Both the position numbers and the translations under genes were made by a program. Below the pieces are notes generated by a model. It saw nothing but the letters and a program-made list of their open reading frames with translations. It ran no database searches and had not been told where the DNA came from. DNA of 64,000 nt from Deltaproteobacteria bacterium RIFCSPHIGHO2_01_FULL_43_49 (GTDB taxonomy: Bacteria; UBA10199; SPLOWO2-01-44-7), in assembly GCA_001798075.1 (NCBI GenBank), contig MGRG01000008.1:124001-188000 (forward strand), read 5' to 3'. This document shows positions 30,144 to 54,136 of the stretch, in pieces (the first letter of the stretch is position 1; each line of letters begins with the position of its first letter).

Positions 30144-31085
30144 ATGGGTGGTCTGCTTAAACAGTATCTTTGGGTCTTGGATTTAGTCACCATTTTATTT
30201 TGCTCTTTTTTTGCGGCGAAACTCACAAGCGTTTATCTAAGCAGACTCATTGAAGTAGAACGCCCTCTTGCCAAACTGGTTGTGGCGGAATCGACTACAA
30301 CCGCCGCGCGCACAACACCCCCCGCATCGGATTATAAAATTATCGTTGAGAGAAATATTTTTGATTCGACAGAATTGCCGCCAGAAGAACCGCCACCAGA
30401 CGTGGCTCTGACAGCCCCAATCACGGGTGAGGCCCTACCCACCACTTTGGGGATCAAGGTCATGGGGGTTTTGGTGGTGGGCAAAGGAGTCGATGAACGC
30501 TCTTCGGCAACCATTGAAGGGGGTCAGGGTGGTGCGGCCGTCGACACCTATGCGGTAGGGACAGAAAATGGTTTTGCACCCGGTACGAAGCTAACCAAGG
30601 TGAAACCAGACAGAATCGAATTTATTCATAATGGACGTCTCGAATATGCGTTAGTTGAGGATGAAGGTGGGGAAAGCATTTTTGGCCCTCCTCCGGCCAT
30701 GACAACGGCTGCGACCCCGGTTTCTTCTGCACCGGTAGAACCTGGCCAAGCTATTAAAAAGACTGGGGAAAATAAATTTGTGATTGATCAAAAAGAGGTT
30801 CAAAATGCCCTAATCAATGTCGATCAACTTTATACAGAGATTAGGGCAGTGCCGAATTTTGCCGGTGGAAAAGTGTCTGGAATGAAGATTTTATCGGTGA
30901 AGCAAGGCTCGATTTTTGATAAGCTGGGACTTCAACGAGGGGACATATTGGAAAAGATTAATGGCCAAGAATTGGACGTCAAGCGAGGCTTTGAAATTTT
31001 TGGTCAGCTAAAGGATGAAAAAAGGCTGACTCTCGATTTGGTCCGTCAAGGGGCTAATCAGAGTTTTGAATATGAAATACGTTAG
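30144..31085 (+). CDS. gspC: Type II secretion system protein GspC
   Basis: 313 residues: a short cytoplasmic start, one membrane helix (LVTILFCSFFAAKLTSVYL), then the periplasmic HR domain (YKIIVERNIFDS, LGIKVMGVLVVG). Near 215-313 is a PDZ domain (GSIFDKLGLQRGDILEKINGQEL). GspC links the inner-membrane platform to the secretin GspD. Its end overlaps the gspD frame by 20 bases. Confidence 0.92.
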   Translation: MGGLLKQYLWVLDLVTILFCSFFAAKLTSVYLSRLIEVERPLAKLVVAESTTTAARTTPPASDYKIIVERNIFDSTELPPEEPPPDVALTAPITGEALPTTLGIKVMGVLVVGKGVDERSSATIEGGQGGAAVDTYAVGTENGFAPGTKLTKVKPDRIEFIHNGRLEYALVEDEGGESIFGPPPAMTTAATPVSSAPVEPGQAIKKTGENKFVIDQKEVQNALINVDQLYTEIRAVPNFAGGKVSGMKILSVKQGSIFDKLGLQRGDILEKINGQELDVKRGFEIFGQLKDEKRLTLDLVRQGANQSFEYEIR

Positions 31086-33870
31086 GTTAAAAAAGGAACG
31101 GGGCCTGTCCCTCCGTGTTTTTGTGGGGGCCCCTAACAAAACCCCACAACAAACACTCCGGACCACCCGTTCCTTTTTTAATAAATCTTTTGGTTTTGTT
31201 TTTTTTGTTCTTATAACTTTCTCAGCTTATGCTCAGCTTCCTGAGGGAGCGGCGCAACTTCCAGGGGCAGAGGATGTTTTTACGCCACAAGTTGAGCAAC
31301 CGACTCCTCCTTCAGAAACAAAGGCAGAAACGGTACCCACTGAGGCTCAAAAAACTGAGGCTCAAAAAGAAGAAGAACAACCGGTCAGTCCAGAAGAAGA
31401 GCTTGTCTATCTCAATGTGCAAGATCAAGACATCAAAGAAATCATCAAGCAAATCAGCAAGGCAACAGGGCGTAATTTTATTATCGATGCAAAAGTTTCC
31501 GGCAAGATCACGATCCTTTCAAATAAAATGATGAGCAAAGAGGAGGCCTATCAAGCCTTTCTCTCGGCTTTACAGGTTGCCGGATTTACAACAGTGGCCG
31601 GCCCTGGCGGTGTTTTGAAAATTATTCCAACAAGAGATGCTAAAAATTTTCCAATTCCAACCCACGTTGATTCCACACCCTACACAGACAGTTACATTAC
31701 AAGACTCATCAAAATGGAAAACATCAGTGCCAACGACATGGCAGAAGCCATCAAAGGTTTGATTTCCAGAGATGGGAATTTGTTTGCTTATCCAGAAACC
31801 AACACACTTGTTTTGACAGACTCCGGAACTAACATTGATCGCTTGATGAAAATCATCAAAGAGTTGGATCAAGAAGGGCCTCAACAAACTGTTGAAATTA
31901 TCCCAATTCACTTTGCCTCAGCCAAAGAGTTGGCAAGCATTGTCTTGAAAATTTTTGAGGAACAGAAAGGCAAGGGAGGTGGAGCCAGACCAACTGGAGG
32001 CTTGGAAGAAGGGGCTCAGGTTTCCCAAATCATTGCGGATGACAGAACCAATTCACTCATCGTGTTGGCAACAAAAAGGGCCATGGAGAAAGTCAAAGAA
32101 CTGATCAACCGTTTGGATGCCAAATTGGAAGAGGGGGCCGAAGGAAAAATTCATGTCCATTATCTGAAGTATGCCAAGGCCAAGGACATTACATCGGTAT
32201 TGCAGGGTTTGGCGGGTCAGGCTGCAAAACCACCCGGACAGGGTGGAGCCGACAAAGGGCCAATCATTGCTGAGTTGGAAGATTTTAAAGTTTCTGCCGA
32301 TGAGACGACAAACTCTCTTTTGATCACGGCGAGTGCAAAGACCTACAATAACTTGGTCGAAAAAGTCATCGACAAGCTCGATATTCCAAGAAAGCAAGTC
32401 TATCTTGAAGCGATGGTCATTGAGTTTACGCTGGCACGCAAAAAAGAATTTGGCATTTCAGCGCATGGTGGAGTTGCCGGTGGATCAACGGTTGGATTTG
32501 GAGAAACATTCAAACAGTTAACAAATTTGTTTGATCCCTTGGCGGCGGGGACTTTTGCCGCCCCCGGTTTGTTGGGGGGCATTTTATCAACCAGAACGGT
32601 GGATATTAAGGTTTTGGACAAAGATGGAGCCCAAAAAACAATCAGTCTGCCCGCATTTTCTGCTTTCTTAACGGCTTTAAATTCTTTTGGTGACACCAAC
32701 ATTGTTGCCAGCCCCAATCTTTTGGCCCTCGATAACGAAGAATCTTCTATCGAAATTATCAGGAAAGAACCGGAGGCGGGACAGACAACCATCACAGGAA
32801 CGGGGCTTTCTCAAGCTGGACCGCCTAGTCGCGTGGAGGCTGGTTTGAAATTAAAACTGACCCCGCAAATTACCGAAAGGGGTGCTGTGCGGATGAAGAT
32901 TGATCAGTCGTATTCTTCCTTCGTTACGCCGGCCAATACTACTCTCGGCTCTCAAGCCATTGTTGAAAGAAAAGTGGCCACTTCTGTTATTACTAATGAT
33001 GCCCAAACGGTGGTCATTGGCGGTTTGATGGAAGATAAAATCATCACTGCCAAGACTAAAGTTCCGATTTTGGGTGATATTCCTTTGCTCGGCTATCTTT
33101 TTCAAAAGAAAGAAACAACAAAAGGGAAAAGTAATCTTTTGTTGTTTATCACGCCGCATATTATTCGAGATTCAGGCGATTTTCAAAATGTCTTGAGTAG
33201 AAAACTGGCTCAGCAAGACGATTTTTTAGATAAAAATTTCAAACGTAAAGAAAAGAAGACTATCGAAACAACGATTGAAGGGCACAATCCAGACCTTTTG
33301 GATATTTTGGCAAAAGCCCCTGCTTCTTCTGCCTCTTCTACTGCCCTACCGCCGATGAGCGCACAAGAAAGGATGGCTTATACCCCTGCGGTGATTACGG
33401 CCAAGCCAGATGATGAACCACGGATAACAATTGTTTTGCCTGCGCGTTCAGAGGAATCTTTTGAACCACCCGCGCTCCCCAAAGAAGAAAAACGCTCTAA
33501 GAAAAAGATCAAAGAAGAAACGGTGATAGAAGAAGCGCCGAAGACGACAACAAAAAAATCGGTTGAGGTGAAACCGATAGAAAAAGAAATGATTGAAACT
33601 AAAGAGACGGAAAAACCGGCGACCAAATCTGTCCCTAAATCGGCTCCGGAATCAGCACCTCCGACTATCGAAGTCATTCCACCAAAGCCCGCCAAAAAAG
33701 AGGCGAAGGCAACGGCTCCCATTGAGCCGGCACCCATGAAAGTGGAATCAAAACCAAAAACCCAAAAGACAGAGACAAAGAAGTCAACCACCGGTGGCAG
33801 CAGCACTAAAATGAAGCACGCCCCCGTCATTACCCTTCCCCCCGGCACCACCCCGGATATGGGAGAATAA
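31066..33870 (+). CDS. gspD: Type II secretion system secretin GspD with long charged C-terminal tail
   Basis: 934 residues. The signal peptide core (FGFVFFVLITFSAYA) lies about 40 residues in, because a 91-base palindromic repeat is in frame ahead of it and encodes VGAPNKTPQQ. The N0 domain (LNVQDQDIKEIIKQISKATGRNFIID), N1-N3 domains, and secretin core (VASPNLLALDNEES, VPILGDIPLLGYLF) follow, with FITPHIIRD at the end of the core. The last 190 residues are a Lys/Glu/Pro/Thr-rich tail without known fold. GspD forms the outer-membrane pore. The start inside gspC implies coupling; an ATG at 31072 is an alternative. Confidence 0.93.
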   Translation: MNMKYVRLKKERGLSLRVFVGAPNKTPQQTLRTTRSFFNKSFGFVFFVLITFSAYAQLPEGAAQLPGAEDVFTPQVEQPTPPSETKAETVPTEAQKTEAQKEEEQPVSPEEELVYLNVQDQDIKEIIKQISKATGRNFIIDAKVSGKITILSNKMMSKEEAYQAFLSALQVAGFTTVAGPGGVLKIIPTRDAKNFPIPTHVDSTPYTDSYITRLIKMENISANDMAEAIKGLISRDGNLFAYPETNTLVLTDSGTNIDRLMKIIKELDQEGPQQTVEIIPIHFASAKELASIVLKIFEEQKGKGGGARPTGGLEEGAQVSQIIADDRTNSLIVLATKRAMEKVKELINRLDAKLEEGAEGKIHVHYLKYAKAKDITSVLQGLAGQAAKPPGQGGADKGPIIAELEDFKVSADETTNSLLITASAKTYNNLVEKVIDKLDIPRKQVYLEAMVIEFTLARKKEFGISAHGGVAGGSTVGFGETFKQLTNLFDPLAAGTFAAPGLLGGILSTRTVDIKVLDKDGAQKTISLPAFSAFLTALNSFGDTNIVASPNLLALDNEESSIEIIRKEPEAGQTTITGTGLSQAGPPSRVEAGLKLKLTPQITERGAVRMKIDQSYSSFVTPANTTLGSQAIVERKVATSVITNDAQTVVIGGLMEDKIITAKTKVPILGDIPLLGYLFQKKETTKGKSNLLLFITPHIIRDSGDFQNVLSRKLAQQDDFLDKNFKRKEKKTIETTIEGHNPDLLDILAKAPASSASSTALPPMSAQERMAYTPAVITAKPDDEPRITIVLPARSEESFEPPALPKEEKRSKKKIKEETVIEEAPKTTTKKSVEVKPIEKEMIETKETEKPATKSVPKSAPESAPPTIEVIPPKPAKKEAKATAPIEPAPMKVESKPKTQKTETKKSTTGGSSTKMKHAPVITLPPGTTPDMGE
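31089..31179. repeat. Palindromic repeat family A, copy 1 (in frame in gspD)
   Basis: Outer arms AAAAAAGGAACGGG and CCCGTTCCTTTTTT pair perfectly. The core carries GGGCCTGTCCCT, then TGTGGGGGCCCCTAACAAAA and CCCCACAACAAACACTCCGG. The core is nearly identical to those at 50479-50594 and 54022-54116, but the outer arms differ. It is read as codons 9-38 of gspD. Confidence 0.85.
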
Positions 33871-33877
33871 TGCTATA

Positions 33878-34942
33878 ATGTTTCCTTTTACTCTTTGGCT
33901 GATGCTTTTAACCGCGATGTCGTCAGGGCTGCAAGCTCAGTCTCAACCCAACCCACAAATAACTCAAATCGATGCTACGACGTTAGCTTCTGTTTTGCTG
34001 ACTCCCAATGAAGTTCAGAAAATAAAAAACATTCCTTTGGTCAACCCGGCAACAATCAAATTCTATGGTCGTTTGGGAACGAATCGTGACGTCATTTTTA
34101 ATTTTTCTATCGCGCGCACTTGGCATCGCCCTCAAAATATATGGACCTTGATCGTTAATGCCCTGACCGCTTTTCCCTCTGCCGAAGCGGCCAAAGAGGG
34201 GTTGGCAGTTTTGAGCCGAGAGGGAGAACAACTTTCCAACGCAAACCCAGTTGGTGATCAATCGATTGCAAAGTTTCAAGAACCAAAAGGAGAAGAACCT
34301 GCCTTCATTGCCTATTATTTTACGGTAGGACCTTATGTCGCCCAGGTCACGGTTTTTGGCGATCCAAATGTACACGGTGAAAAAGAGATGTTTGTTTCAC
34401 ACTTGGAACCGGCTGCTCATACCTTGGCCAAGGCACAGGAGGAAAAAATGCGCCCTCTTTTGAGTGGAACAATTCCTCTTGTGGAAAGAGATTTCTCCTC
34501 TCTTCGATTTCCACAGAATCTTGCAGGAACAACCTTGCTTGGCAGTGCACCGGTCACTCCTTTAGAATGGCGCACGTTGGAAAAAGACACTGCCAAAACC
34601 ACGATTGCGGGATTTCAAAAGGGGGCCACACGCAGTTTTCATCTCATGGCTCGTCCAGAAGAAATTGCCCGTGTTGCTGTTTTTACTTTTGATACCGATG
34701 CCAATGCAAAAGCCTTCGTCAAAGAATTAACCGCAAGAAAATTGCCCAAAATTCCTCTGCCGCCAGAGCTTAAGAACAATGGAGTTGCTGTGGATGTTAC
34801 ACAATACGAAATTCTGGAATTTCGAGGTGCAAAAGGAAGCCGATCCGTCGATATCCTCCTTCTTTCCCCTTTTGGAAAAATCGACAAAAAGGAAGCCAAG
34901 AAAGACCTCATAGACTTTGCAAAACAACTCCTGGCTTATTAG
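33878..34942 (+). CDS. Unknown secreted protein behind gspD
   Basis: 354 residues with a signal peptide (FPFTLWLMLLTAMSSGLQAQ). A mixed alpha/beta body contains NIWTLIVNALTAFPSAEAAKEG and a similar second half (VFTFDTDANAKAFVKELTARK), so it may be two copies of one fold. I do not recognise the family. The ATG is 8 bases after the gspD stop, making it part of the T2SS operon. A periplasmic or secreted role in the T2SS is a guess from position. Confidence 0.7.
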   Translation: MFPFTLWLMLLTAMSSGLQAQSQPNPQITQIDATTLASVLLTPNEVQKIKNIPLVNPATIKFYGRLGTNRDVIFNFSIARTWHRPQNIWTLIVNALTAFPSAEAAKEGLAVLSREGEQLSNANPVGDQSIAKFQEPKGEEPAFIAYYFTVGPYVAQVTVFGDPNVHGEKEMFVSHLEPAAHTLAKAQEEKMRPLLSGTIPLVERDFSSLRFPQNLAGTTLLGSAPVTPLEWRTLEKDTAKTTIAGFQKGATRSFHLMARPEEIARVAVFTFDTDANAKAFVKELTARKLPKIPLPPELKNNGVAVDVTQYEILEFRGAKGSRSVDILLLSPFGKIDKKEAKKDLIDFAKQLLAY

Positions 34943-34944
34943 TC

Positions 34945-34973
34945 TACCACCAGGTGCCTGGCACCCTGTGGTA
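34945..34973. repeat. Hairpin repeat, GGTGCCTGGCAC family, copy 2
   Basis: TACCACCAGGTGCC and GGCACCCTGTGGTA flank one T, with outer arms TACCAC/GTGGTA. It fills the gap between the convergent unknown secreted gene and the PIN toxin gene and may serve as terminator for both. Confidence 0.7.
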
Positions 34974-35384
34974 TCAATCGATTTCTTTTATCAATTCGTT
35001 TGTTGATAGGACTTTGATAATGGTTTGATTCTTTATTCCTGAATCATTAGACCAAATTGGGATATTGAGATGCATGGCCAAAGCCAGATAAGGAGCATCT
35101 TCCTCATGTGGAGCAATTTCTAAGGCCCGATTTAAACAAGAGACATATTCTTCTTTTGGAATGACTTTGATTGGAGCGGTCAAAAAATCAAAGAGAAAAT
35201 CGAAATCGGCTTGTGAAAAGTCATCCCATCTTTTTGAAAAACGTTCCTTAAGCACCTTTCTTGACTCAATTAAAAGATGCTGCGGAGAATAAAGCTCCAC
35301 TTTTTCGTTTAAAAGAAGATTCCTTGTTATTGCCGCTTTTAAGAATGCTGCGATTAGAATGTTGGCATCGATAACGAGTTGCAT
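34974..35384 (-). CDS. PIN-domain RNase toxin
   Basis: 136 residues with the PIN acidic residues in place: VIDANILIAAF (Asp5), the internal Glu/Asp region (IAPHEEDAPYLALAM) and IWSNDSGI (C-terminal Asp). PIN proteins of this size are VapC-like endoribonucleases. The gene follows the RHH antitoxin gene after 3 bases. The module lies against the direction of the T2SS genes, between gspD and gspE. Confidence 0.88.
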   Translation of the reverse strand: MQLVIDANILIAAFLKAAITRNLLLNEKVELYSPQHLLIESRKVLKERFSKRWDDFSQADFDFLFDFLTAPIKVIPKEEYVSCLNRALEIAPHEEDAPYLALAMHLNIPIWSNDSGIKNQTIIKVLSTNELIKEID

Positions 35385-35387
35385 CAG

Positions 35388-35609
35388 CTATGAGCGGTGT
35401 TTTTTCCAGACCCGTTTTTTTACTTCACGATCCAATTCGGGAATTTCTGTTTCGTCAAGCCCGCCTGCTTTGAGCATGCGATTCATTTTTTCTAAAAGCT
35501 TGGCCTTTTCAAGGATCGCTTGGCGGGCTACCTCTGACCAGTTGATCTCTGGAAATTCCCGCATCTTTTCTCTTAGTTCTTCGGGGATGGAAAGGGTTAA
35601 ACTAGCCAT
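35388..35609 (-). CDS. Ribbon-helix-helix-type antitoxin
   Basis: The start is the ATG at 35609, seven bases behind AAGGAGG. The 73 residues open with ASLTLSIPEELREKM, a typical DNA-binding ribbon-helix-helix, then a helical, charged tail that would wrap the toxin. It is encoded directly before the PIN toxin and probably represses the pair through the inverted repeat at 35634. Confidence 0.82.
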   Translation of the reverse strand: MASLTLSIPEELREKMREFPEINWSEVARQAILEKAKLLEKMNRMLKAGGLDETEIPELDREVKKRVWKKHRS

Positions 35610-35633
35610 GAACAAACCTCCTTAAACACAACT

Positions 35634-35651
35634 TTATGTTAATACACATAA
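35634..35651. promoter_or_regulatory. Candidate operator of the PIN/RHH module
   Basis: TTATGT-N6-ACATAA lies 25 bases upstream of the antitoxin start. A second palindrome, ACGTT-TGTC-AACGT, follows at 35654-35667. Both suit binding by a dimeric ribbon-helix-helix protein. Confidence 0.5.
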
Positions 35652-35806
35652 TTACGTTTGTCAACGTTTTGAACATGAATAGGGTAATGGAGCGTAATTC
35701 TTATTTAATTTCAGCTAGTTAGGATTTCTTGAAAAAGTTGAGCAACTTTTTTAGCTTTTTGCCTTACCCTAAGTCGCGGTGCAAACGAGCCACCATTTTT
35801 GAATAG

Positions 35807-35984: not shown

Positions 35985-36092
35985 TAGGTATAAATGAAGG
36001 CGAGTGGAAGTCACAACTTGAGGTAACTAGCTTATTTCTTTATGACTTTTTGCGCCTTGTTCGCCCTTCAGCAAAATGGTATTCTTGAAATC

Positions 36093-37798: not shown

Positions 37799-37935
37799 CA
37801 AATCCGAAATTCTAAATCCGAAATTCTAAACAAATATCAATTTTTCAAATTACAATCCCCAAAACTATTTATTATTTGAAACATTGAAATTTAAAATTTG
37901 TTTAGGATTTAGATATTAGAATTTAGGGTTTTTAA
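37799..37935. repeat. AT-rich palindromic repeat family B, copy 1
   Basis: Fills the gap between gspE and gspF. The left arm is made of AAATTCTAAATCCGAAATTC-like units ending in AAACAAAT. The right arm reads ATTTGTTTAGGATTTAGATA and onwards, its reverse complement with changes. Similar copies lie at 45377, 49507 and 51945. gspF starts 8 bases later without a Shine-Dalgarno. Confidence 0.85.
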
Positions 37936-37943
37936 TTAAAAAT

Positions 37944-39194: not shown

Positions 39195-39635
39195 ATGAAA
39201 CGCTTCACGCTTCACGCTTCACGCTTCACGAACAAAGGTATGACACTCATCGAAATCATGGTGGTGATCACCATTTTAGGTTTGATCGCTGCCATGGTTA
39301 CAGTCAACGTCATGGGCCGTTTGGAAAAGGCAAAGCTGGATACGGCTATGACTCAAATTAAATCGCTAGAACAAGCCTTGGAGCAATATCGCCTCGATAA
39401 TGGAAGTTATCCTTCAACAGAACAGGGGCTTGCTGGCTTGGTTGAAGCCCCATCTGGTGCCAAACGCTTCCAACCAGGTGGTTATCTGAAAGGTGGAAAA
39501 GTTCCGGATGATTCCTGGAATGAGCCTTTTAGTTATTTAAGCCCCGGGACCCAAGGTCATCCGTTTGAAATTGTTTCCAAAGGACCGGATCGCGAAGAAG
39601 GAACGGATGATGATGTTAAGAGCTGGGAAGAATAA
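39195..39635 (+). CDS. gspG: Major pseudopilin GspG
   Basis: 146 residues. After an unusual leader encoded by a heptamer repeat (MKRFTLHASRFTNKG), the prepilin signature G|MTLIEIMVVITILG appears with Glu at +5. The C-terminal half has the GspG loop (YRLDNGSYPSTEQGL) and calcium-site region (DSWNEPFSYLSPG, DREEGTDDDV). AGGGGGAC before the ATG is the likely ribosome site. It builds the pseudopilus. Confidence 0.95.
   Translation: MKRFTLHASRFTNKGMTLIEIMVVITILGLIAAMVTVNVMGRLEKAKLDTAMTQIKSLEQALEQYRLDNGSYPSTEQGLAGLVEAPSGAKRFQPGGYLKGGKVPDDSWNEPFSYLSPGTQGHPFEIVSKGPDREEGTDDDVKSWEE
39201..39230 (+). repeat. CGCTTCA heptamer tandem repeat in the gspG leader
   Basis: Four exact tandem copies of CGCTTCA plus CG, starting two codons after the gspG start. 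It encodes RFTLHASRFT of the prepilin leader, which prepilin peptidase should remove. Confidence 0.85.
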
Positions 39636-40698: not shown

Positions 40699-41385
40699 AT
40701 GAAAATAAAACCGGAACGGGCCACCCGTTCCGGTTTTACTCTCATTGAAGTCTTAGTATCGGTTGCTTTGGTTGCCGTTATCATGTTGCTCATTTGGCAA
40801 ACGACCGGACAAACACTGAATGCCAAGCAGCGCATTGAAAAACGTGATGAACTCTATCACAACGCCCGTGTGTCTGTTGATAAAATGGTACAAGATATTT
40901 CCATGGCCTTTTTGGTCAATGGCCCATCCCATACCGGTCAACGACAAGGCTCCCCGCAAATCAAGACTGTTTTTAAAGGGGAGGATGCTTCGCTTTATTT
41001 TGCTTCGTTGGCTCATTTGCGCCTTTTTAGCGGTTCTCGGGAAACAGAAGGTTCCGAAATGGGCTATAAAGTGGAGCAGGATCCAGACAACAGAGACTTT
41101 TTAATTTTGATGCGTCGGGAATCGAAATGGATGGATGACAAACCAGAAGAAGGGGGAGTTTGGCTCCCACTTGCTTCGAGAGTTAAAAAACTAAAAATTG
41201 AATATTATGATGGCCGCAAATTCGATTGGCAAAGTAGCTGGAACACAGAAAGTGACACAGGAATGAAGCTGCCGCGCGCTGTTCGCATTAGCATTGATTT
41301 TGATAATCCCGATAATCCCGACGAAGATATTTCGATAACGACAACCGCACTCTTGGAGATGTATAACAATGCGATCGATTTTTAA
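40699..41385 (+). CDS. gspJ: Minor pseudopilin GspJ
   Basis: 228 residues from the ATG at 40699, one base after the gspI stop; an in-frame ATG 30 bases earlier lies inside gspI. The leader MKIKPERATRSG and first mature codon are encoded by a perfect 31-base hairpin repeat, and cleavage is expected before FTLIEVLVSVALVAV. The rest matches GspJ (LYHNARVSVDKMVQDISMAF, LPRAVRISIDFD). It is part of the tip complex. Confidence 0.92.
   Translation: MKIKPERATRSGFTLIEVLVSVALVAVIMLLIWQTTGQTLNAKQRIEKRDELYHNARVSVDKMVQDISMAFLVNGPSHTGQRQGSPQIKTVFKGEDASLYFASLAHLRLFSGSRETEGSEMGYKVEQDPDNRDFLILMRRESKWMDDKPEEGGVWLPLASRVKKLKIEYYDGRKFDWQSSWNTESDTGMKLPRAVRISIDFDNPDNPDEDISITTTALLEMYNNAIDF
40707..40737. repeat. Solo palindrome related to family A, in frame in the gspJ leader
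   Basis: AAAACCGGAACGGG and CCCGTTCCGGTTTT, exact complements, flank CCA. The inner GGAACGGG/CCCGTTCC arms match the outer arms of the family A copy in gspD, as if the core had been lost. It encodes KPERATRSGF next to the prepilin cleavage site. Confidence 0.8.
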
Positions 41386-43078
41386 AAGAGACTTGATAAA
41401 AAATTGCCGAGCTGGCTACCTGGCGCTGAGGCGGGTGAAAAGACGTGGTCCTTTTTGGGGCGACCCAAAAAGTCCACTCAGCTCTCCCCCGCCAAGACAT
41501 TCATATCCCGACAAGGTGTTGGCGGGGTCCGAGATGCTTTTCACCCCCCTCATCGCCACGCCAGCTCGGCACCCTATTTCTAAATTGATTTATTTAGGCA
41601 ATCGCGCGAGCGAGTTGCGGTTCGAAAGGCGTCTCGGAGGCACTGGCAACAGCGGGGGTTATGAAAACCGCCAGCGCCGAGAGACGAGTGGGTGTTTTGG
41701 GGCGCTCCCCAAAACAACCCACGTCCTTTCGAATCCCAACGAGCGGAAGCGATTGCTTAAGAGATCAAGTGAATCAGGGATTGCGTTGTTGCTAGTCATG
41801 AGTGCGATCATGATTTTGACGATGATTGGGGTGGAATTCGCTTACAATGCCCAGATTGAATATCAAATGGCCGTGCGCCAGAGAGAAAGGCTTCAAGCCT
41901 TTTACCTTGCTAACTCCGGTTATAATTTGACCAGGTTGCAACTCAAGATTGGAAATGCCACACAAGGCCAGGTTCAACAGGCCACCACGCAGGCCAATAT
42001 TGACCTTCCTGTCGATTTGTCAGCACCCCTTTGTCAACAGTTTCCCATCAAGACCTCTTTATTTCGTTTGTTAATGATGGGAGAAAGTGGCGAGGCGCCT
42101 CCACCGAGTAATGAGGAGGGAGCAGAAGCTACAAGCGAAACGGCTGAAAACATGTTTGCCGCGTTCCCCATGCAAGGGCTGGAAGAATTTTTGCAATTCG
42201 AAGGAGACTTTGATTCGGAGTGTGCCGATGAGGCTTCCAAAATTGATCTTAATTTTTTCTACACGCAAGATCCCTCCAAAAGAGTTGAAGGACAAGACAA
42301 CGCCTATGACCAATACAAAAAATTTCTTATCGGGGTGTTAAATCAGCCGACCTACAAAGAACTTTTCGAAAAAACGAACGTCAAAGTGTTGGATGTCGTT
42401 CGCAATATTGCCGACTGGATTGACGGAAACGAAGTCATCAACGAGTTTGGGGGTTCTGAAGGAGGGGGAGAGGACTCTGTCTATCGCGGAGGAGTTTCCG
42501 GCCAGATGGCCGCTAAAAATGGGAAACTCTCTTTGCCAGGGGATATTTATCTTGTGGAGGGGGTGACCGATCTTTGGTGGATTCCTCTCTCGGAATTGTT
42601 CACGATTTATGGTACAACCAGCCAAGATGCGAAGCCTCAAATTAATGTTTGCCGGGCCCCAAATGAGGTGGTTAGAGCCCTTATTTTGAGATATACTGAA
42701 ACGCGAACCGATTTGCCGCCGGTTAAACCAGAAGATGAAGAAATTTTGGGTCAGTTGGTTCAAACAGTCAAAGGAGGTTGTACGGGGGCCGTTCCAGATA
42801 AAAATAAAATCGCTCAAGATTTGGATGCCAAACTTTTAGAAATTTTGAAGGCCAGCCCAACGACAACAACTGGACAACCAACGGGCGGTCAGGCTGGTTA
42901 TGGCACAACCGCTTCCCGTTTTGCAGATTGGATTGCGACCCAGAGCCGTTTTTTCAGTCTTAATATCAAAGGAGCAGTGGGCGATACCGTTGTAACCATC
43001 AAATCGGTCATTGATATGGGACAAGCGGGGGGGTCTGATACCTCCAAATGGAAAACCGTTTATTATAAAGTGCAATAA
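41369..43078 (+). CDS. gspK: Minor pseudopilin GspK with an in-frame repeat insertion before the prepilin signature
   Basis: The frame opens at an ATG inside the end of gspJ, but the prepilin signature ESG|IALLLVMSAIMILTM comes only after about 137 residues. The segment between is encoded by two family C repeat units (41405-41571 and 41597-41758). The body is standard GspK (YQMAVRQRERLQAFYLANSG, IDLNFFY, ADWIDGNEV, PGDIYLVEGV). Either the long form is made, or translation starts at the TTG at 41752, giving a normal leader MLKRSSESG. GspK caps the pseudopilus. Confidence 0.85.
   Translation: MRSIFKRDLIKNCRAGYLALRRVKRRGPFWGDPKSPLSSPPPRHSYPDKVLAGSEMLFTPLIATPARHPISKLIYLGNRASELRFERRLGGTGNSGGYENRQRRETSGCFGALPKTTHVLSNPNERKRLLKRSSESGIALLLVMSAIMILTMIGVEFAYNAQIEYQMAVRQRERLQAFYLANSGYNLTRLQLKIGNATQGQVQQATTQANIDLPVDLSAPLCQQFPIKTSLFRLLMMGESGEAPPPSNEEGAEATSETAENMFAAFPMQGLEEFLQFEGDFDSECADEASKIDLNFFYTQDPSKRVEGQDNAYDQYKKFLIGVLNQPTYKELFEKTNVKVLDVVRNIADWIDGNEVINEFGGSEGGGEDSVYRGGVSGQMAAKNGKLSLPGDIYLVEGVTDLWWIPLSELFTIYGTTSQDAKPQINVCRAPNEVVRALILRYTETRTDLPPVKPEDEEILGQLVQTVKGGCTGAVPDKNKIAQDLDAKLLEILKASPTTTTGQPTGGQAGYGTTASRFADWIATQSRFFSLNIKGAVGDTVVTIKSVIDMGQAGGSDTSKWKTVYYKVQ
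41405..41571. repeat. Structured repeat family C, copy 2 unit 1 (inside gspK)
   Basis: Terminal inverted repeats of about 40 bases start TGCCGAGCTGGC and end GCCAGCTCGGCA. Inside are CTTTTTGGG/CCCAAAAAG and CCCCGCCAA/TTGGCGGGG stems. It is read in frame as GYLALRRVK...YPDKVLAGSE, which matches the peptide of the unit at 55538-55774. Confidence 0.8.
41597..41758. repeat. Structured repeat family C, copy 2 unit 2 (inside gspK)
   Basis: Ends GGCAATCGC... and ...GCGATTGCTT form inverted repeats of about 34 bases containing GTTCGAAAGG/CCTTTCGAAT. An inner stem TTTTGGGGCGCTCCCCAAAA lies near 41697-41716. The encoded GGYENRQRRETSG and NPNERKRLL peptides recur in the unit near 55352-55520. Confidence 0.78.
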
Positions 43079-44779: not shown

Positions 44780-45376
44780 ATGGCTCTAAAGTTTAAATAT
44801 TCTATTTTGCAACGGTTTAATTTTGAAGCATTATACAATACCTTTCTTGGTTTGCAGCCCAGAGAACAGATCTTTGCGCTTCTTGGCGCCGGTTTTGTCG
44901 TTTTGTTTATTGTAGGACTTCCTTTTTCTTTAGCCTCCGGCAAGTTAGGAAGTTTGGAAAAAGAGATCACTCAGGGCAGAGAAAAACAACGTCAGATTTT
45001 GAGGGAGTTGGAGCGCTACCAACAACTAAAGAAAGAATTGGAGACTGTTGAATCAAAAATTTCTGGCGGTTTCGACGCGACCATCACAACAACGATGGAA
45101 TCGTTAGCCGAAAAAAGCGGGATCAAAGATCGGATTGAAAATATCAAAGAAAGGGCGGCAACTCCCTCCGAGTTGTTCGATGAGGTTGCCGTCGATGTTC
45201 GTATCACGAAAGTGACGGTGCCGCAGTTGGTCGATTTTTTATACAATATCGAGCAGCATCCACAGCTTTTTTTGAAAGTTAAACAGATCCAGGTTAAAAG
45301 GCGTTATGACAATAGACAATTACTAGATGTCTCTTTCCAGGCTTCAACATATAGACTGCAAGGAACAGGAGGTTAA
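44780..45376 (+). CDS. gspM: Type II secretion protein GspM
   Basis: 198 residues: a short cytoplasmic start, LGLQPREQIFALLGAGFVVLFIVGLPF with the membrane helix, a coiled coil (REKQRQILRELERYQQLKKELE) and a ferredoxin-like periplasmic domain (VTVPQLVDFLYNIEQHPQLFLKVKQIQV). It partners GspL in the inner-membrane platform. No Shine-Dalgarno is visible because hairpin copy 3 fills the gap. Confidence 0.88.
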   Translation: MALKFKYSILQRFNFEALYNTFLGLQPREQIFALLGAGFVVLFIVGLPFSLASGKLGSLEKEITQGREKQRQILRELERYQQLKKELETVESKISGGFDATITTTMESLAEKSGIKDRIENIKERAATPSELFDEVAVDVRITKVTVPQLVDFLYNIEQHPQLFLKVKQIQVKRRYDNRQLLDVSFQASTYRLQGTGG

Positions 45377-45509
45377 AATTCTAAATCCTAAATTCGAAAT
45401 TCTAAACAAATTCCAATTTCCAAATCCAAATTTTTCAAACCATTTGAAATTTGAAGCCTTGAAATTTGGTATTTGTTTAGGATTTAGATATTAGAATTTA
45501 GTATTTTTT
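45377..45509. repeat. AT-rich palindromic repeat family B, copy 2
   Basis: Begins right after the gspM stop with TAAATCCTAAATTCGAAATT-type units and AAACAAATTCC. It ends in ATTTGTTTAGGATTTAGATA followed by TTAGAATTTAG. gspN starts three bases later. Confidence 0.85.
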
Positions 45510-46750: not shown

Positions 46751-46760
46751 TTTTTCTCCT

Positions 46761-47042: not shown

Positions 47043-47049
47043 GGATAGT

Positions 47050-47070: not shown

Positions 47071-47103
47071 CGTCAAGTGTAATAATCTACTCCGACCGGA
47101 TAT

Positions 47104-47430: not shown

Positions 47431-47431
47431 G

Positions 47432-48451: not shown

Positions 48452-49036
48452 CTAGCTCCTCGCCAAATTTTTCAATCCCTCTTTAACCACTGTTTCTAAA
48501 CTTGAAGCTTTTGTCCAATCGAGCCTTTGGAGGGATTGTTCTGCCTGCCCGCGAGTGTATCCTAAATGGGTGAGGGCTGACAAGGCTTCATCATAGGTTT
48601 GACTGGCACTCGGGCGCTTTGAACTAGAAATGGGAGCTTGAATCTTGCCTTTCAGATCGATCAAAATCCTCTCAGCCGTTTTTTGGCCGATGCCGGGGAT
48701 CGATTTCAATTTGGCACTATCTCCATTGGCAATTGCTTCCGCCATCTCGTGAGGAGTCATGCCCGAAAGGAGGGTGATAGCCGATTTTGGCCCAATCCCA
48801 GAAACTTTAATCAATTGTTGGAAAAGACTTTTTTCATTGAGACTCAAAAAACCAAAAAGGGTCAGCTGATCTTCCCGCACGTGAGTGTGGATATGAAGGG
48901 AGACCTCCATTTCTTCAGGGGGGAGTTCATAAAAAGTGTTGAGCGAGACAGAGACTTGATACCCAACACCATTGACATCGATGATGATATGCTCAGTAGA
49001 CTTAAGTTTTAATATTCCTTTAAGATGGGCGATCAT
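48452..49036 (-). CDS. ruvA: Holliday junction DNA-binding protein RuvA
   Basis: 194 residues: OB-fold start MIAHLKGILKLKSTEHIIIDVNGVGYQV, helix-hairpin-helix motifs (KVSGIGPKSAITLLSG and SIPGIGQKTAERILIDLKGK) and a small C-terminal domain (ALTHLGYTRGQAEQSL) that contacts RuvB. It overlaps ruvC by 4 bases. Confidence 0.97.
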   Translation of the reverse strand: MIAHLKGILKLKSTEHIIIDVNGVGYQVSVSLNTFYELPPEEMEVSLHIHTHVREDQLTLFGFLSLNEKSLFQQLIKVSGIGPKSAITLLSGMTPHEMAEAIANGDSAKLKSIPGIGQKTAERILIDLKGKIQAPISSSKRPSASQTYDEALSALTHLGYTRGQAEQSLQRLDWTKASSLETVVKEGLKNLARS

Positions 49037-49506
49037 TTAAACCTCTTTGTTTGACAATGACAAAGAGCAACCGCCAAAGCATCGGTGGCATCTTCTTGCG
49101 CCACTTCTTTTAATTTCAAATGAATCTTCACCATTTTTTGCATCTGCTCTTTGGTGGCTTGTCCAAAGCCGGTGATGGCTTGTTTGACTTGGGCCGGCGG
49201 ATATTCATAAACACTCACTCCTTGGATGGCTGCAGCCAACATCACAACCCCTCTTGCATAGCCTAGTTTGAGTGAACTTTTGACATTTTTGGCCATAAAA
49301 ACATCTTCTAGCGCAATTTCAGAAGGGGAAAATTGTTGGATCAGTTTTTGAATGCCTTCAAAGATTTGTTTCAAGCGCAATGGGATTTCCATTTTGGAAG
49401 AGGGAGCGATCAAGCCGTTATCAATGTGTTGAATCCCCCGCCCATTTTTTTCAATCAAACCATAGCCGGTGAAACGTGTCCCAGGATCGACTCCTAGAAT
49501 AATCAT
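49033..49506 (-). CDS. ruvC: Holliday junction resolvase RuvC
   Basis: 157 residues with the RNase H-like fold: catalytic Asp in ILGVDPGTRFTGYG, Glu in IALEDVFMAKN, and the final acidic pair in EDATDALAVALCHC. First gene of ruvCAB, separated from yebC by repeat B3. Confidence 0.97.
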   Translation of the reverse strand: MIILGVDPGTRFTGYGLIEKNGRGIQHIDNGLIAPSSKMEIPLRLKQIFEGIQKLIQQFSPSEIALEDVFMAKNVKSSLKLGYARGVVMLAAAIQGVSVYEYPPAQVKQAITGFGQATKEQMQKMVKIHLKLKEVAQEDATDALAVALCHCQTKRFK

Positions 49507-49645
49507 AAATTCTAAATCCCAATTTCTAAATTCTAAACAAATTCCAAATCCTAATGACCAAAATTCCGAACAAGATTGTTTAGATCATTTGAATTTAGAA
49601 TTTTGAATTTGTTTAGGGTTTCGGATTTAGTGCTTAGGATTTGCA
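49507..49645. repeat. AT-rich palindromic repeat family B, copy 3
   Basis: Between ruvC and yebC: left arm AATTCTAAATCCCAATTTCT and further units with AAACAAATTCC, right arm TTGAATTTGTTTAGGGTTTC and following bases. The central part is less symmetric than in copies 1 and 2. Confidence 0.8.
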
Positions 49646-49649
49646 TTTG

Positions 49650-50393
49650 TTATGACGCTAATTTTTCCATGACGGAAGCATCAATATCAAAATTGGCATG
49701 GACATTTTGCACATCATCATGGTCTTCCAGGGCTTCCATTAATTTCAACATCTTTTCGGCATCAAGCCCTTCCAAACGGATTGTATTTTGTGGAATCATT
49801 TGAAGCGAAGCCTCTTGTGATTTCAATCCTTTTGCTTCACAAGCCGTTTTCACTTTATCCAAAGCGTTTGGATTCGTTAAGACTTCAAAGACATCTTCGG
49901 CATCATGGATGTCATCGGCACCGGCATCCAAAGCGATTTCCATCAATTTTTCTTCGCCAACGGCTTTGGGGAAGATTAGGACTCCTTTTTTATGAAACAT
50001 CCATCCCACACAACCGACCTCACCAAGGTTTCCACCCATTTTGTTCAAGAGATGTCTAACTTCAGCCACCGTTCGGTTGTGGTTGTCGGTCATCGCTTCG
50101 ACGAGAAGGGCAACACCCCCGGGCCCGTAGCCTTCGAGGACAAATTCTTCGATGTTTGCCCCTTCGCCTTCTCCAGTTCCTTTTTTGATGGCCCTTTGGA
50201 CGTTGTCGGCTGGCATATTGGCTGCCTTGGCCTTATCAATAGCAAGCCGGAGTCGTGAATTACCATTTGGATCAGCGCCCCCGATCCGTGCGGCAATAGT
50301 AATCTCCCGGATGACTTTAGAGAAAACTTTTCCTCTTTTCGCATCGGCAGCTCCTTTCTTTCTTTTGATGGTGGACCATTTGGAATGCCCTGA
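49650..50393 (-). CDS. yebC: YebC/PmpR-family regulatory protein
   Basis: 247 residues from [23 protein letters not shown], the universally conserved start; an in-frame ATG 21 bases upstream is disregarded. [26 protein letters not shown] and [22 protein letters not shown] are family hallmarks. Members act as transcription regulators or as translation factors at proline stretches. It stands upstream of ruvCAB, a common arrangement. Confidence 0.95.
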
Positions 50394-50478
50394 CATGAGA
50401 GGAGCGTAGCACAACGAATTCTCGCCTGTAAACCCCTTTTAATTTGGAAGTCTTCTCCGGCCTTTGCGAAAAACGCAT

Positions 50479-50594
50479 TTATTAAATTGAGTGAAGCTTC
50501 GGGGTCCTGTCCCTACGTGTTTTTGTGGGGGCCCCTAACAAAACCCCACAACAAACACTCCGGGCCACCCCTTCGCTTCAATTATTAAATTAAA
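50479..50594. repeat. Palindromic repeat family A, copy 2 (intergenic)
   Basis: The core (GTCCTGTCCCTACGTGTTTT, TGTGGGGGCCCCTAACAAAA, CCCCACAACAAACACTCCGG) is nearly identical to the gspD copy. The outer arms are different: ATTAAATTGAGTGAAGC on the left against GCTTCAATTATTAAATT on the right. Confidence 0.82.
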
Positions 50595-50604
50595 GCGCTT
50601 TTCA

Positions 50605-50850
50605 CAGGGACTGCTTCGAACTATCGCAGTGTTCGAACCTCCTGTGGGCCCATTGCGCGAGGGCAGGAGGGGGTGGGCAAAACATTGTGCGGGAACGAGG
50701 GCGTATTGAGTCAATAAAAATGATATTCGTTTCTGCAGATAGAGCTGACGGCAGGTAAGATACTATCTGCATTTTTTTGACGAGATAGCCCGAAGTGAAG
50801 CACCGTTTTGAACGCCCACTCCTGCCAGAAAGCAATGGGCTCAAAGGTCG
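50605..50850. other. Long imperfect inverted-repeat region, possible structured RNA or mobile repeat
   Basis: No protein-like frame exists between yebC and pilT. GGGCCCATTGC with GGCAGGAG, GTGGGC and AAAAC on the left (50646-50683) matches, in the same order, the reverse complement of the right side (50804-50843). Further pairs and an apical hairpin GCAGATAG/CTATCTGC (50735-50770) would form a rod of about 200 bases. On the plus strand that apical hairpin is followed by seven T. A nested stem, CACAGG...TTCGAAC/GTTCGAA...CCTGTG, lies at about 50605-50646. The rod with bulges recalls 6S RNA, but I see no diagnostic sequence. Confidence 0.45.
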
Positions 50851-50876
50851 GAGAAGGGTTATACCATCTTTTTTAG

Positions 50877-51935
50877 CTAACCTAGTTGTTTGCGGAGTTC
50901 TTCGAGATCGGGGGAGCGGGCGAGGGCTTCTTCGGTTTTCACGCTTTTGTTTTTCACAAGGTTGGCCAGAGATTGATTCATGGTTTGCATGCCGGTTTCT
51001 GTTTGAGACAATTGCATTTGGGCATAAACTTGGTGGATTTTGTTTTCTCGAATCAAATTTCTCATCGCCGGGTTTGGAATCAAAATTTCCAAGGCCAGCA
51101 CACGCCCCTTTTCCACTTTGGGGAGTAACTGTTGGCATAAAATACCTTGTAAAATTGTCGCCAATTGGCTTCTGACTTGGTTTTGTTGATGAGAAGGAAA
51201 GATATCAATAATGCGATCGATAGTTTGGACCGCAGTATTCGTATGCAGCGTGGCTAGAACCAAATGTCCTGTTTCCGCAATCGTCAACGCGGCACGAACT
51301 GTCTCCAAATCGCGCATTTCGCCCACCATCACCATATCCGGGTCTTCTCGGAGACAATATTTTAGTCCATTTTGGAAGCTCGTTGTATCTCTGCCGACCT
51401 CGCGTTGGTGGATAAGGCACTTTTTTGATGTGAATACAAATTCAATGGGGTCTTCAACGGTGATGATGTGCCAAGGTTTTACCTGATTCATGGCGTTAAT
51501 CATGGCGGCCAGCGTTGTGGATTTACCACTACCCGTCGTTCCCGTGACTAAAACAAGACCATGAGGTTTATAAGCCAGGTCTTGAACGAGTTTAGGGAGC
51601 CCCAGTTCTTCAAACTTTGGGATTTGAAATGGAATTTGCCGAAAAGCCCCGGTGACACTGTGTTGCTGCCAGTAAAGATTCGCCCGAAAACGGGCCAAAT
51701 CCTTAATGGCAAAGGAAAGGTCTAATTCCAAATCTTGCTCAAACTTCATGATATGTTCTTGACTGAGAACCTCGTAGCAAATCGCTTGCGATTGTTCGGA
51801 GCTCAGGGGAGTATCCGTTAAGGGATATAAAGAGCCATCCACGCGGATGAGGGGAGGGGTACCTGCCCCAATATGAAGGTCAGAAGCCCCTTTTGAAACC
51901 ATTGTTTTTAAAAATTCGTGTAGTGCCTTGGCCAT
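50877..51935 (-). CDS. pilT: Type IV pilus retraction ATPase PilT
   Basis: 352 residues: N-terminal PAS-like region (KGASDLHIGAGTPPLIRVDG), Walker A GTTGSGKSTTLAAMI, Asp box ITVEDPIEFV, Walker B MVMVGEMRDLETVRAAL, His box HLVLATLHTNTA, and the PilT-specific C-terminal AMRNLIRENKIHQVYAQ. PilT disassembles pili for retraction. It is away from the pilus operon, facing the minor pilin at 52135 across repeat B4. Confidence 0.93.
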   Translation of the reverse strand: MAKALHEFLKTMVSKGASDLHIGAGTPPLIRVDGSLYPLTDTPLSSEQSQAICYEVLSQEHIMKFEQDLELDLSFAIKDLARFRANLYWQQHSVTGAFRQIPFQIPKFEELGLPKLVQDLAYKPHGLVLVTGTTGSGKSTTLAAMINAMNQVKPWHIITVEDPIEFVFTSKKCLIHQREVGRDTTSFQNGLKYCLREDPDMVMVGEMRDLETVRAALTIAETGHLVLATLHTNTAVQTIDRIIDIFPSHQQNQVRSQLATILQGILCQQLLPKVEKGRVLALEILIPNPAMRNLIRENKIHQVYAQMQLSQTETGMQTMNQSLANLVKNKSVKTEEALARSPDLEELRKQLG

Positions 51936-51944
51936 CTAACAAAA

Positions 51945-52080
51945 AATCCTAAATCCTAATATCTAAATCCTAAACAAATCCCAAATCTTAAATTCAAATG
52001 TTCCAAACAATCTTGTTTGGAATTTTGGATTTTTGATCATTAGATATTGTTTAGAATTTAGGATTTCGAATTTAGAGTTT
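51945..52080. repeat. AT-rich palindromic repeat family B, copy 4
   Basis: Lies between the divergent pilT and the minor pilin gene. AAATCCTAAATCCTAATATC and AAACAAATCCC on the left; the right arm ends ATTGTTTAGAATTTAGGATT. A central TCCAAACAATCTTGTTTGGA hairpin is clear. Any promoter of pilT would have to lie within or beside it. Confidence 0.8.
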
Positions 52081-52134
52081 TCCCCCTTGTATTTACTTAT
52101 GCAATATTTTTTTTAATTATGCTAGGAGAAAGTC

Positions 52135-52452
52135 GTGGAATTAAAAAGAATGAATCGATCGGGGTGGGAATATTTTCTCATCATCAGTATTGTAGGGTTC
52201 TCTCTTATTTTGTCCGTTGGGCTCTATGCCAAACGGGATCGGGTGTTTAAAGAACGCTTGTTGATCTTGGAGTTATCGCGCCTTCGAAGCCATGTCATCG
52301 CATATATGTTGGAATATAAACAACACCCGTCGGATTTGAAGCTATGGACTAAGGACTATGGACTCAAGGTCGATCCATTTGGCAATCCTTACCATTACGA
52401 TCCAAGATCAGGCTGGGTATCGACAACGACTCCATCTCACAAACACTGGTAA
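52135..52452 (+). CDS. Small pseudopilin-like protein (GspG-like)
   Basis: 105 residues from a GTG eight bases behind AGGAG. The start (MELKRMNRSGWEYFLIISIVGFSLIL) resembles a class III signal, but Glu is at +2, not +5. The C-terminus YGLKVDPFGNPYHYDPRSGWVST matches the end of GspG-type pseudopilins. Codons near 70-77 fall in a GGACTATGGACT-type repeat (52342-52364) read in frame. It is probably a minor pilin or periplasmic pilin-like factor, encoded alone and convergent with pilQ. Confidence 0.65.
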   Translation: MELKRMNRSGWEYFLIISIVGFSLILSVGLYAKRDRVFKERLLILELSRLRSHVIAYMLEYKQHPSDLKLWTKDYGLKVDPFGNPYHYDPRSGWVSTTTPSHKHW

Positions 52453-52453
52453 G

Positions 52454-54136
52454 TTACCGTAAAATCCTTGGTGTGATAAAGACCATCAATTCACTTTGGG
52501 TCTTTGATTTCGTTTTGGATTTGAAAAAGAGGCCGACCACCGGAATTTTTGAAAATCCAGGAACAGACCTTTTTGAATTGGAGTTTTTAACTTTGATCAA
52601 CCCACCAATAACAGCGGTTTCCCCATCTTTGAGAAAGACGGTGGTGGAGGCTACGTTGTCGATGACAGCCGGAATTCCATCAACGGTTTTTGAGAAGTCG
52701 GCTTCGCTTTCCGTTGCCTCGATCTTCAGCTTGATGAGGTTTTCAGGTGAAATTTGTGGCGTGACTTTAAGTTCAATACCGGTATCAATTTCCTGTAGAC
52801 CTGACGTCGAACCGCCACCTGTTCCGGCAGCGGTTCCCACGGTAATGTTCGAGGTCGATTTAACGTGAATTTTGACACCACTTCTGATTTTTGCCGGTAA
52901 ATTGTTGACTGTGGTGATGTTCGGTTTCGAAATGATGCGGATATCTCCCTTTTGTTCAGCAGCGCTTAACTGTAAATCGATATTCATTCCACCCGGCAAT
53001 TGACCGATTCGGAGTGCTGCAGCACTGGTAGGGTTTGCGGCACCGAGATTGACTTGGGGTCTTGTCGCCGCGTTGGCCCCAACCGTGAAACTCGTCAGGG
53101 AGTCTCCCCCTGCAATAGTCAAACGGTCTGGTGTTCCCGTCACACCCCATTGGATTCCCAACGACCTCGAAAATTCATTGGTTGCATCGATGATGTGGGC
53201 TTCAATCAATACTTGTTGATCTTTTTTGTCGACGGCTTCGATTAAACTCCTGACGTTTTCCACATTGGCATCATAGTCCTTGACGCTCAAAACGTTTATC
53301 CTGTCTTCAGCCGTCACGGAGCCTTTGTCAGAAAGAAGCGGTTTTACTTTATCAACCAAATCTTTGGCCGTTGCGTATTTCAAAGCGATTGTTGTGGCCA
53401 GAAGGTCTGTTCCCCCAACAAATTGGTCAGATCTACCGACTCGGATAATGCCACTTTCGATGGCATAATTGTAACCATTTACTTTCAAGATGGAATTAAT
53501 GGCATCCCTCAGTGTTGTATTTTCAAAGCTCAAGTTTAATCTCCCCGTCATATCCTCCGGAGTGATCAAATTGTAACTAGCAGACTTGGCAAGTAGTCGA
53601 AGGGAATCTCTTAGGTCTGCATGGCGAAATTCTATTGAATAGTTTTGTTTCCCCTTTTTACTGACAGATTCAATGTATCCTTCGAGGTTGAGATGATACT
53701 CTTGGTTGTCAAGGGAAAGGACGATTTCCCCTTCGTGGATTTTAGCGACACTATATTTTCCAAGCTGGTCTCCCACTCGCACGATGTTGCCGGAAACCAA
53801 GGCAAAAGCTTTGCCCTCTCCAATCACCAGGCCTTCCAAAGTCAAAGAGGTGATGTCGATTTCTCCTTTGACGTCGGCGGGCATAAAGGGATTGCGCGCT
53901 CCCACACGGATCTGCTCCTTTTCCAATTGTTCGGTTGCAATGTCGGAAAGGGAGGTCGCCCCCCATGCAGTACCGGTGAAGAGGAAAAAGAAAAGGAGAG
54001 CCGCAATTTTATATGAGAGTGGTGAAAAAGTAGTGGGTGGCCCGTAGTGTTGCTGTGGGGTTTTGTTAGGGGCCCCCACAGAACACGGAGGGACAGGCCC
54101 TACTACTTTTTCACCATCCTTTTTATTGCGCCACAT
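52454..54136 (-). CDS. pilQ: Type IV pilus secretin, PilP-PilQ (MshK-MshL-like) fusion
   Basis: 560 residues. The signal peptide (IAALLFFFLFTGTAWG) follows a 40-residue lead encoded by repeat A3, again with VGAPNKTPQQ. Residues about 78-155 form a PilP-like domain (ARNPFMP, LTLEGLVIGEGKAFALVSG, VRVGDQLGKYSVAKI). A secretin N0/STN domain (FRHADLRDSLRLLAKSASYN), N1 domain and secretin core (ISKPNITTVNNLPA, VPGFSKIPVVGLFFKS, FITPRIL) complete it. No separate pilP is present, so the lipoprotein-type PilP appears fused to its secretin. It overlaps pilO by 14 bases. Confidence 0.88.
   Translation of the reverse strand: MWRNKKDGEKVVGPVPPCSVGAPNKTPQQHYGPPTTFSPLSYKIAALLFFFLFTGTAWGATSLSDIATEQLEKEQIRVGARNPFMPADVKGEIDITSLTLEGLVIGEGKAFALVSGNIVRVGDQLGKYSVAKIHEGEIVLSLDNQEYHLNLEGYIESVSKKGKQNYSIEFRHADLRDSLRLLAKSASYNLITPEDMTGRLNLSFENTTLRDAINSILKVNGYNYAIESGIIRVGRSDQFVGGTDLLATTIALKYATAKDLVDKVKPLLSDKGSVTAEDRINVLSVKDYDANVENVRSLIEAVDKKDQQVLIEAHIIDATNEFSRSLGIQWGVTGTPDRLTIAGGDSLTSFTVGANAATRPQVNLGAANPTSAAALRIGQLPGGMNIDLQLSAAEQKGDIRIISKPNITTVNNLPAKIRSGVKIHVKSTSNITVGTAAGTGGGSTSGLQEIDTGIELKVTPQISPENLIKLKIEATESEADFSKTVDGIPAVIDNVASTTVFLKDGETAVIGGLIKVKNSNSKRSVPGFSKIPVVGLFFKSKTKSKTQSELMVFITPRILR
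54022..54116. repeat. Palindromic repeat family A, copy 3 (in frame in pilQ)
   Basis: Reverse orientation to copies 1 and 2. Arms GGTGAAAAAGTAGT and ACTACTTTTTCACC pair perfectly and differ from those of copies 1 and 2. The core is conserved (GGGGTTTTGTTAGGGGCCCC). It supplies codons 7-38 of pilQ. Confidence 0.85.

Follow-up and report, generated by a model that had tools for sequence, protein, structure and literature searches.

Unrelated small repeats lie in frame in the leaders of exported proteins in a deltaproteobacterial genome

Repeats at the export genes of the window

The window analysed here is a stretch of 64,000 nucleotides, positions 124001-188000 of contig C8 in the genome of Deltaproteobacteria bacterium RIFCSPHIGHO2_01_FULL_43_49 (own genome, G000; 2.23 Mb in 15 contigs). 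Between 31066 and 54136 it holds the type II secretion genes gspD and gspG to gspK, and pilQ on the opposite strand. Genes were called with a home-made caller and signal peptides were assigned by a simple hydropathy rule. Repeats were counted in a sample of 1.2555 Mb, or 56% of the own genome, and the counts were replicated in one other genome, G004, which belongs to a different genus (587 kb). The features are collected in Table 1. At 26948-27760 the window also has an open reading frame that Pfam matches to LAGLIDADG_3, a domain like that of homing endonucleases (E=1.5e-8).

Table 1. Genes and repeats of the window, in window coordinates
Feature	Position	Strand	Basis and remarks
AGAGGCAG array, codes for the charged n-region of the OmpA-family protein at 6689	6695..6714	+	Pfam OmpA
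TTCTCTGC array, partner of AGAGGCAG, hydrophobic h-region of the 6689 protein	6746..6781	+	Mutually complementary octamers
gspD (type II secretion secretin)	31072..33870	+	Pfam Secretin, Secretin_N, GspD N0; same start in other genera
gspD copy, left arm TTAAAAAAGGAACGGG, translated LKKERG	31086..31101 (approximate limits)	+	Pairs with the right arm over 16 bp without mismatch
Family-A core in the gspD leader	31102..31167	+	Profile match; stop-free in the gspD frame
gspD copy, right arm CCCGTTCCTTTTTTAA, translated RSFFN	31167..31182 (approximate limits)	+	Complementary to the left arm
Array of 4.4 ACGCTTC copies, prepilin leader of gspG	39200..39230	+	TRF; gspG Pfam T2SSG, N_methyl
Solo palindrome TAAAACCGGAACGGG-CCA-CCCGTTCCGGTTTTA in the gspJ prepilin leader	40706..40738	+	15-bp perfect palindrome; gspJ Pfam N_methyl, T2SSJ
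Family-C repeat, after gspJ and before the prepilin motif of gspK	41410..41745 (approximate limits)	+	Inverted copies 55538-55771
Family-A core, third window copy	50504..50569	+	Intergenic; other arm class (GAAGCTTCGGGG); profile match
pilQ (type IV pilus secretin)	52454..54136	-	Pfam Secretin, Secretin_N
Family-A core in the pilQ leader	54036..54099	-	Profile match; stop-free; hairpin z = -6.4

The first-pass annotation of this stretch had listed six export-related genes with a repeat inside or just before the leader. Five of them (gspD, pilQ, gspG, gspJ and the gene at 6689) bear it out, and gspK is unsecured. In gspD and pilQ the same element, family A, lies between a start codon and the hydrophobic core of the signal peptide with no stop, as had been proposed. 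The gspD start itself had been set at TTG 31066; we place it instead at ATG 31072 (GAATATGAAAT); this start overlaps gspC at its end, and G001 and G003-G005 share it. The family-A element is palindromic, with a core of 68 nt, GGGCCTGTCCCTCCGTGTTTTTGTGGGGGCCCCTAACAAAACCCCACAACAAACACTCCGGGCCACCC, and a profile search found 60 copies in the own-genome sample. Another 39 genomes, from the same family and class, lack it except for one match of 76% in G002. Most copies are intergenic, and many of these are situated, as terminators are, within 4-40 bp of a gene end.

Outer arms, complementary to one another, flank nearly every family-A copy. With its arms the element measures about 100 nt, and it folds far better than shuffled sequences (z from -3.8 to -6.4). 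Copies with cores that are 97% identical have left arms only 38-45% identical between copies, whereas within one copy the left arm and the reverse-complemented right arm are 74-79% identical; when right arms were exchanged between copies, the pairing score fell on average from 10.5 to 4.3. The arms differ at almost every own-genome locus and remain self-complementary, and the 68-nt core is nearly invariant. The gspJ leader hints that the arms may be purely inverted host DNA, but the motif GGAACGGG recurs in the arms at gspD, gspJ, PrmA and one G002 copy, so that the element itself may carry part of its arms. Locus-specific arms may come from insertion into hairpin loops, from template-switching inverted duplication or from fast correlated change of arms that the element carries. 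At five other places in the own genome (C12:33904, C12:152174, C14:180050, C8:192771 and C8:304647) family-A-like arms (GTTGAAAATGACGGG) surround a different core of about 60 nt (TGGTCGGCGATGC...); these palindromes look as if different cores used one kind of arm.

Y1_Tnp was considered as the mobiliser of family A. The own genome has six Y1_Tnp genes, and no family-A copy was found in the 3.3-kb loci (about 1.5 kb on each side) around five of them. At one locus, L052 (G000:C12, near 121725), a RAYT-like Y1_Tnp gene lies between GGTACCTGGTACC palindromes, others of which are found both within genes and in intergenic DNA in similar form; gene and palindromes are likely a REP/RAYT pair.

The palindrome in the gspJ leader had been taken for a separate repeat. 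Its 15-bp palindrome does lie in the leader, but its centre, GGGCCACCC, is identical to the end of family A, and it is probably a family-A copy that has no core. We infer that, with GGGCC at both core ends, a deletion between the two would leave exactly GGGCCACCC. Besides gspJ, only one other solo GGGCCACCC palindrome, a decayed one, was found in the 1.26-Mb sample. The right arm of the gspJ palindrome extends into the conserved G/FTLIE codons. The heptamer reported in the gspG leader was confirmed; ATG 39195 is the sole start upstream of the G/MTLIE motif, with no later start that keeps the leader, and the array is direct, with no inverted partner. For gspK two starts come into question, an ATG at 41369 (-136) before family C and a TTG (-8) after the repeat, eight codons before the prepilin cleavage site. 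Family C is in frame with no stop from ATG 41369, and it is also open in an intergenic copy at 55256-55831. Translation of gspK through family C is ambiguous because the TTG lies beyond the repeat.

The repeat noted for the 6689 surface protein proved to be two complementary octamer arrays, one in the n-region and one in the h-region, and the leader reads RGREAERQEVE...FSASLFLCFLLL. Just 5' of the gene, at 6622-6655, lies a small palindrome, ACAGAAGGTGCCTGGCACTTTCTGT, a GGTGCC-type repeat. Four AT-rich intergenic elements of the window (37799-37938, 45375-45508, 49500-49648 and 51937-52081) consist of AAATTCT/AAATCC-type arrays opposite their own reverse complement and are the intergenic form of an inverted array pair.

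Excess of repeats in the leaders of exported proteins

We defined a leader copy as one lying between the start codon and the hydrophobic core of an exported protein and scored it with a strict automatic rule; a laxer classifier had called 14% of random positions leader. Under the strict rule, 7 of the 11 in-gene copies of family A fall in leaders, as against 3.4% of random in-gene positions (870/25,924), a 19-fold excess (p=1.4e-8). Inspection by eye places family A in the leaders of eight exported proteins (gspD, pilQ, C6:75440, C12:54015, C8:435618, C12:213818, C6:63253 and C8:239106), of which the strict rule counts seven. Tandem arrays with a period of 7 or 8 behave alike: 13/38 in-gene arrays of the own genome lie in leaders (3.1% at random; 11-fold, p=6e-11), as do 19/41 in G004 (2.9% at random; 16-fold, p=8e-19). 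The mature domains of many host proteins are typical of export and include TonB receptor, SLT, OmpA, PPIC/SurA, LppC, M48, S41, M23 and LolA.

A second count, which used called starts only, with no special handling, and took an N-terminal hydrophobic segment as the mark of an exported protein, bears on whether repeats are equally common at the 5' ends of other genes. They are not: array density in the first 45 codons was 206/Mb for exported proteins and 0/Mb for the others in the own genome (p=1e-5), and 794/Mb versus 59/Mb in G004 (p=1e-6). Leaders are nevertheless a hotspot and not the exclusive site that had been suggested, nor are they required. Of the 11 family-A copies inside genes four lie elsewhere, as do half to two thirds of the in-gene arrays; three of these four copies are in frame in the linkers of cytosolic enzymes, namely TrpE/PabB, PrmA and a GcvT-domain protein.

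The same genes carry repeats in other genera. The GspD leader, measured from the start up to the residue preceding the Q of AQxPxG, has about 54 aa here, as opposed to about 16-24 aa in the repeat-free leaders of G001, G002 and G003; in G004 and G005 it is long and contains TGGACCA-type heptamers. Orthologues that have no repeat mostly have short leaders, and the long leaders of G004 and G005 hold other repeats, which answers the question of whether long leaders of unrelated sequence are usual at these genes. Heptamer arrays also lie in the gspH, gspI, gspJ, gspK and pilQ leaders of G004, long inserts are found in gspI, gspJ and gspK of G003, and the pilQ start of G005 has another repeat. The leader of a LppC/Peripla_BP_6 lipoprotein holds arrays in G004 as well as in the own genome. 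The sites are common across genera and the repeats are not. Tolerance predicts this pattern, whereas something peculiar to family A would not be expected to recur so. Outside leaders, the TrpE/PabB linker contains family A in the own genome (C12:295515), heptamers in G002 (L105) and a probable third repeat in G004 (L106); on the sequences compared, this linker is a second cross-genus hotspot.

Paired arrays have a polarity. The reverse complement of AAA, AAG, GAG, AGA and CAG (K, K, E, R and Q) is TTT, CTT, CTC, TCT and CTG (F, L, L, S and L). Because A at the second codon position becomes T on the reverse complement, hydrophilic and hydrophobic residues swap, and an in-frame inverted repeat that begins with its purine-rich arm therefore encodes charged or polar residues and then hydrophobic ones. 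Besides the 6689 protein, examples are EARSREARSRE...SLLLCFFVSCF in a M23 lipoprotein of G004 and KQRGRGTEKQR...LCFLFLCLSAS. The downstream arm is the more hydrophobic in 13 of the 14 leader array pairs (mean KD -1.2, then +0.9; p=9e-4), with G004 L227:1679 as the sole exception. In G004, arrays are paired in 15/19 leaders and in 4/23 gene interiors (p=1e-4). The own genome has a clear array pair in only 3-4 leaders, and in most of its leaders with arrays one unpaired, pyrimidine-rich array codes for the h-region, as in FFAFLFLCFFAS and SLLLVSCFLFL.

Proposed tolerance of repeats in leaders and the alternatives to it

Signal peptides consist of a positive n-region followed by a hydrophobic h-region, tolerate wide changes of sequence and are removed by signal or prepilin peptidase. 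We propose that unrelated small repeats, most of them able to form hairpins, spread in these genomes (family A, the arrays of 7- and 8-mers, often with their reverse complement, and long elements of the family-C type), and that in-gene copies would persist where an in-frame addition is harmless, chiefly in the leaders of exported proteins. Leaders would be favoured because they are read for net composition and then cut off. Inverted repeats would fit them especially, the purine-rich left arm and the pyrimidine-rich right arm supplying charge and then hydrophobicity. This model of leaders that tolerate repeats and are partly built from them is, taken as a whole, probable in our view. The first-pass annotation had regarded leaders as permissive sites for the reason that the added peptide never reaches the mature protein. 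The enrichment over random positions and over the 5' ends of non-exported genes agrees with permissive sites, but removal is half of the reason: a leader needs composition and not sequence, and inverted repeats also supply the order of charge and hydrophobicity. Some leaders appear to be built from repeats. Leaders as long as 54-60 aa would presumably be cleaved normally. More tentatively, in-frame inverted repeats might be a mutational source of new signal peptides, in which one event adds an n-region arm and an h-region arm and repeat turnover continuously rebuilds and replaces export signals in this bacterial family.

The excess could also originate at the insertion step, if a mobiliser or repair process favoured palindromic DNA with A-tracts and T-tracts, such as terminators and starts of the type ATG AAA AAA ... 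TTT TTT, and so struck leaders more often. Family-A arms are often AAAAAG...CTTTTT and fall at KK...FF in leaders; in most leader copies the left arm reads KKER, KKW or RKW and the right arm includes FF. The closeness of intergenic copies to gene ends also agrees with such a preference. However, some arms have no A-tract (GACGACTGACGGG, CTATATAGGTGGG), and dissimilar arrays (TGGACCA, AGAAGC and ACGCTTC) share the leader bias. We therefore consider target preference rather unlikely as the explanation, although it may operate jointly with tolerance, and we infer that the excess is caused by selection against harmful insertions and not by choice of target.

It is unlikely, too, that the arrays arose in place, in signal-peptide DNA of low complexity, through slippage and repair templated by hairpins. 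The h-region arrays are pyrimidine-rich (fraction 0.71-0.89), like the composition of their sites, but synonymous-codon shuffles of the same proteins gave 0.2 leader arrays where 8 are real and 1.8 elsewhere where 24 are real; shuffled genes being nearly free of arrays, amino-acid and codon composition does not account for them. Similar arrays are moreover common between genes (40 of the 79 7/8-mer arrays), and family A, with a core that is common genome-wide, would be left unexplained.

Tolerance of translated repeats presupposes that the repeats are translated. If starts were misannotated, the repeats would lie in 5' untranslated DNA, translation would begin downstream and the leader would not be lengthened. 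The TTG of gspK after its repeat would suit this, as would the several starts that our caller set past family-A copies because repeat DNA scores as non-coding. For gspD, the start is conserved at the DNA level in the genomes named above. From the repeat to the hydrophobic core, neither gspD nor pilQ contains a possible start codon (ATG, GTG or TTG; a GTG is present inside the core), and gspG offers no later start either. Many arrays encode the h-region itself. Lastly, the family-A core has two natural variants, TAACA and TAACT, of which TAACT gives a stop in the mostly used frames, and TAACA is found in 10/11 coding copies versus 16/49 others (p=5e-4), so coding copies shun the stop-bearing variant. 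Misannotation is accordingly improbable as a general account. Least probable is a regulatory adaptation in which hairpins near starts were selected to control the expression of secretion genes: the hairpins near the gspD, pilQ and gspJ starts are strong (z = -5.7, -6.4 and -8.2), but the kind, position and structure of the repeats vary between genera at the same genes, the gspG array is direct and most family-A copies are intergenic.

If leaders are tolerant in this sense, the replicated excess gives a simple rule for where genomes put up with translated selfish DNA, and a coding inverted repeat that spells charged and then hydrophobic residues offers a testable one-step route to make or replace signal peptides, which evolve fast and have little sequence in common. 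For annotation it is a caution, as leaders and start codons near repeats are easily miscalled in such genomes.

Relation to known repeat systems

In-frame repeats in bacterial proteins are already known, mainly as palindromes in Rickettsia and from scattered cases, as is one Yersinia signal peptide built from a repeat. The Rickettsia palindromic elements (RPE; Ogata et al. 2000, 2002) are palindromes of about 100-150 bp that are in frame in many protein genes, translated, hairpin-forming and also intergenic (PMC2229807, PMC10969869). Their hosts are unrelated genes, metabolic ones included, and an enrichment in leaders is not reported in the accessible part of that source (PMC10969869). Family A resembles RPE in its features: it is palindromic, hairpin-forming and about 100 nt long with its arms, and it lies in frame, with the frame intact, in the conserved genes for GspD, PilQ, TrpE/PabB, PrmA and the GcvT-like protein. 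It differs in that its outer arms change from locus to locus, it lies mostly between genes and, among in-gene copies, the excess is in export leaders and is common to unrelated repeats. The Yersinia case is YPO1552, with a signal peptide built from the enterobacterial RU-2/YPAL repeat (Delihas 2007, PMC2759123). There, few loci are concerned and the repeat's own open reading frame gives the hydrophobic residues; the accessible part of that report contains no genome-wide test, inverted-repeat polarity or recurrence of unrelated repeats at one gene (PMC2759123), all of which are present here. The genome-wide, multi-family excess in export leaders and the polarity argument were not found in the literature we searched, a weak negative since subscription journals mostly lay outside it, and a search for tandem repeats in signal peptides gave no relevant match.

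REP, BIME and REPIN sequences with RAYT (Y1) transposases are high-copy small palindromes, mainly extragenic, in which the palindrome is conserved (PMC2817692, PMC3116915, PMC3733652). High-copy small palindromes and Y1_Tnp genes, six of them, also occur in the own genome. Unlike REP and REPIN, however, family A conserves its core while the palindrome arms are poorly alike, and it has no copy beside the five Y1 genes checked. In MITEs the terminal inverted repeats are constant, whereas the terminal arms of family A, also inverted repeats, vary by locus. The STRRs of cyanobacteria are heptanucleotide tandem repeats, mostly intergenic. The arrays described here are likewise tandem 7-mers, but of those inside genes one third to one half fall in export leaders, where many form inverted pairs.
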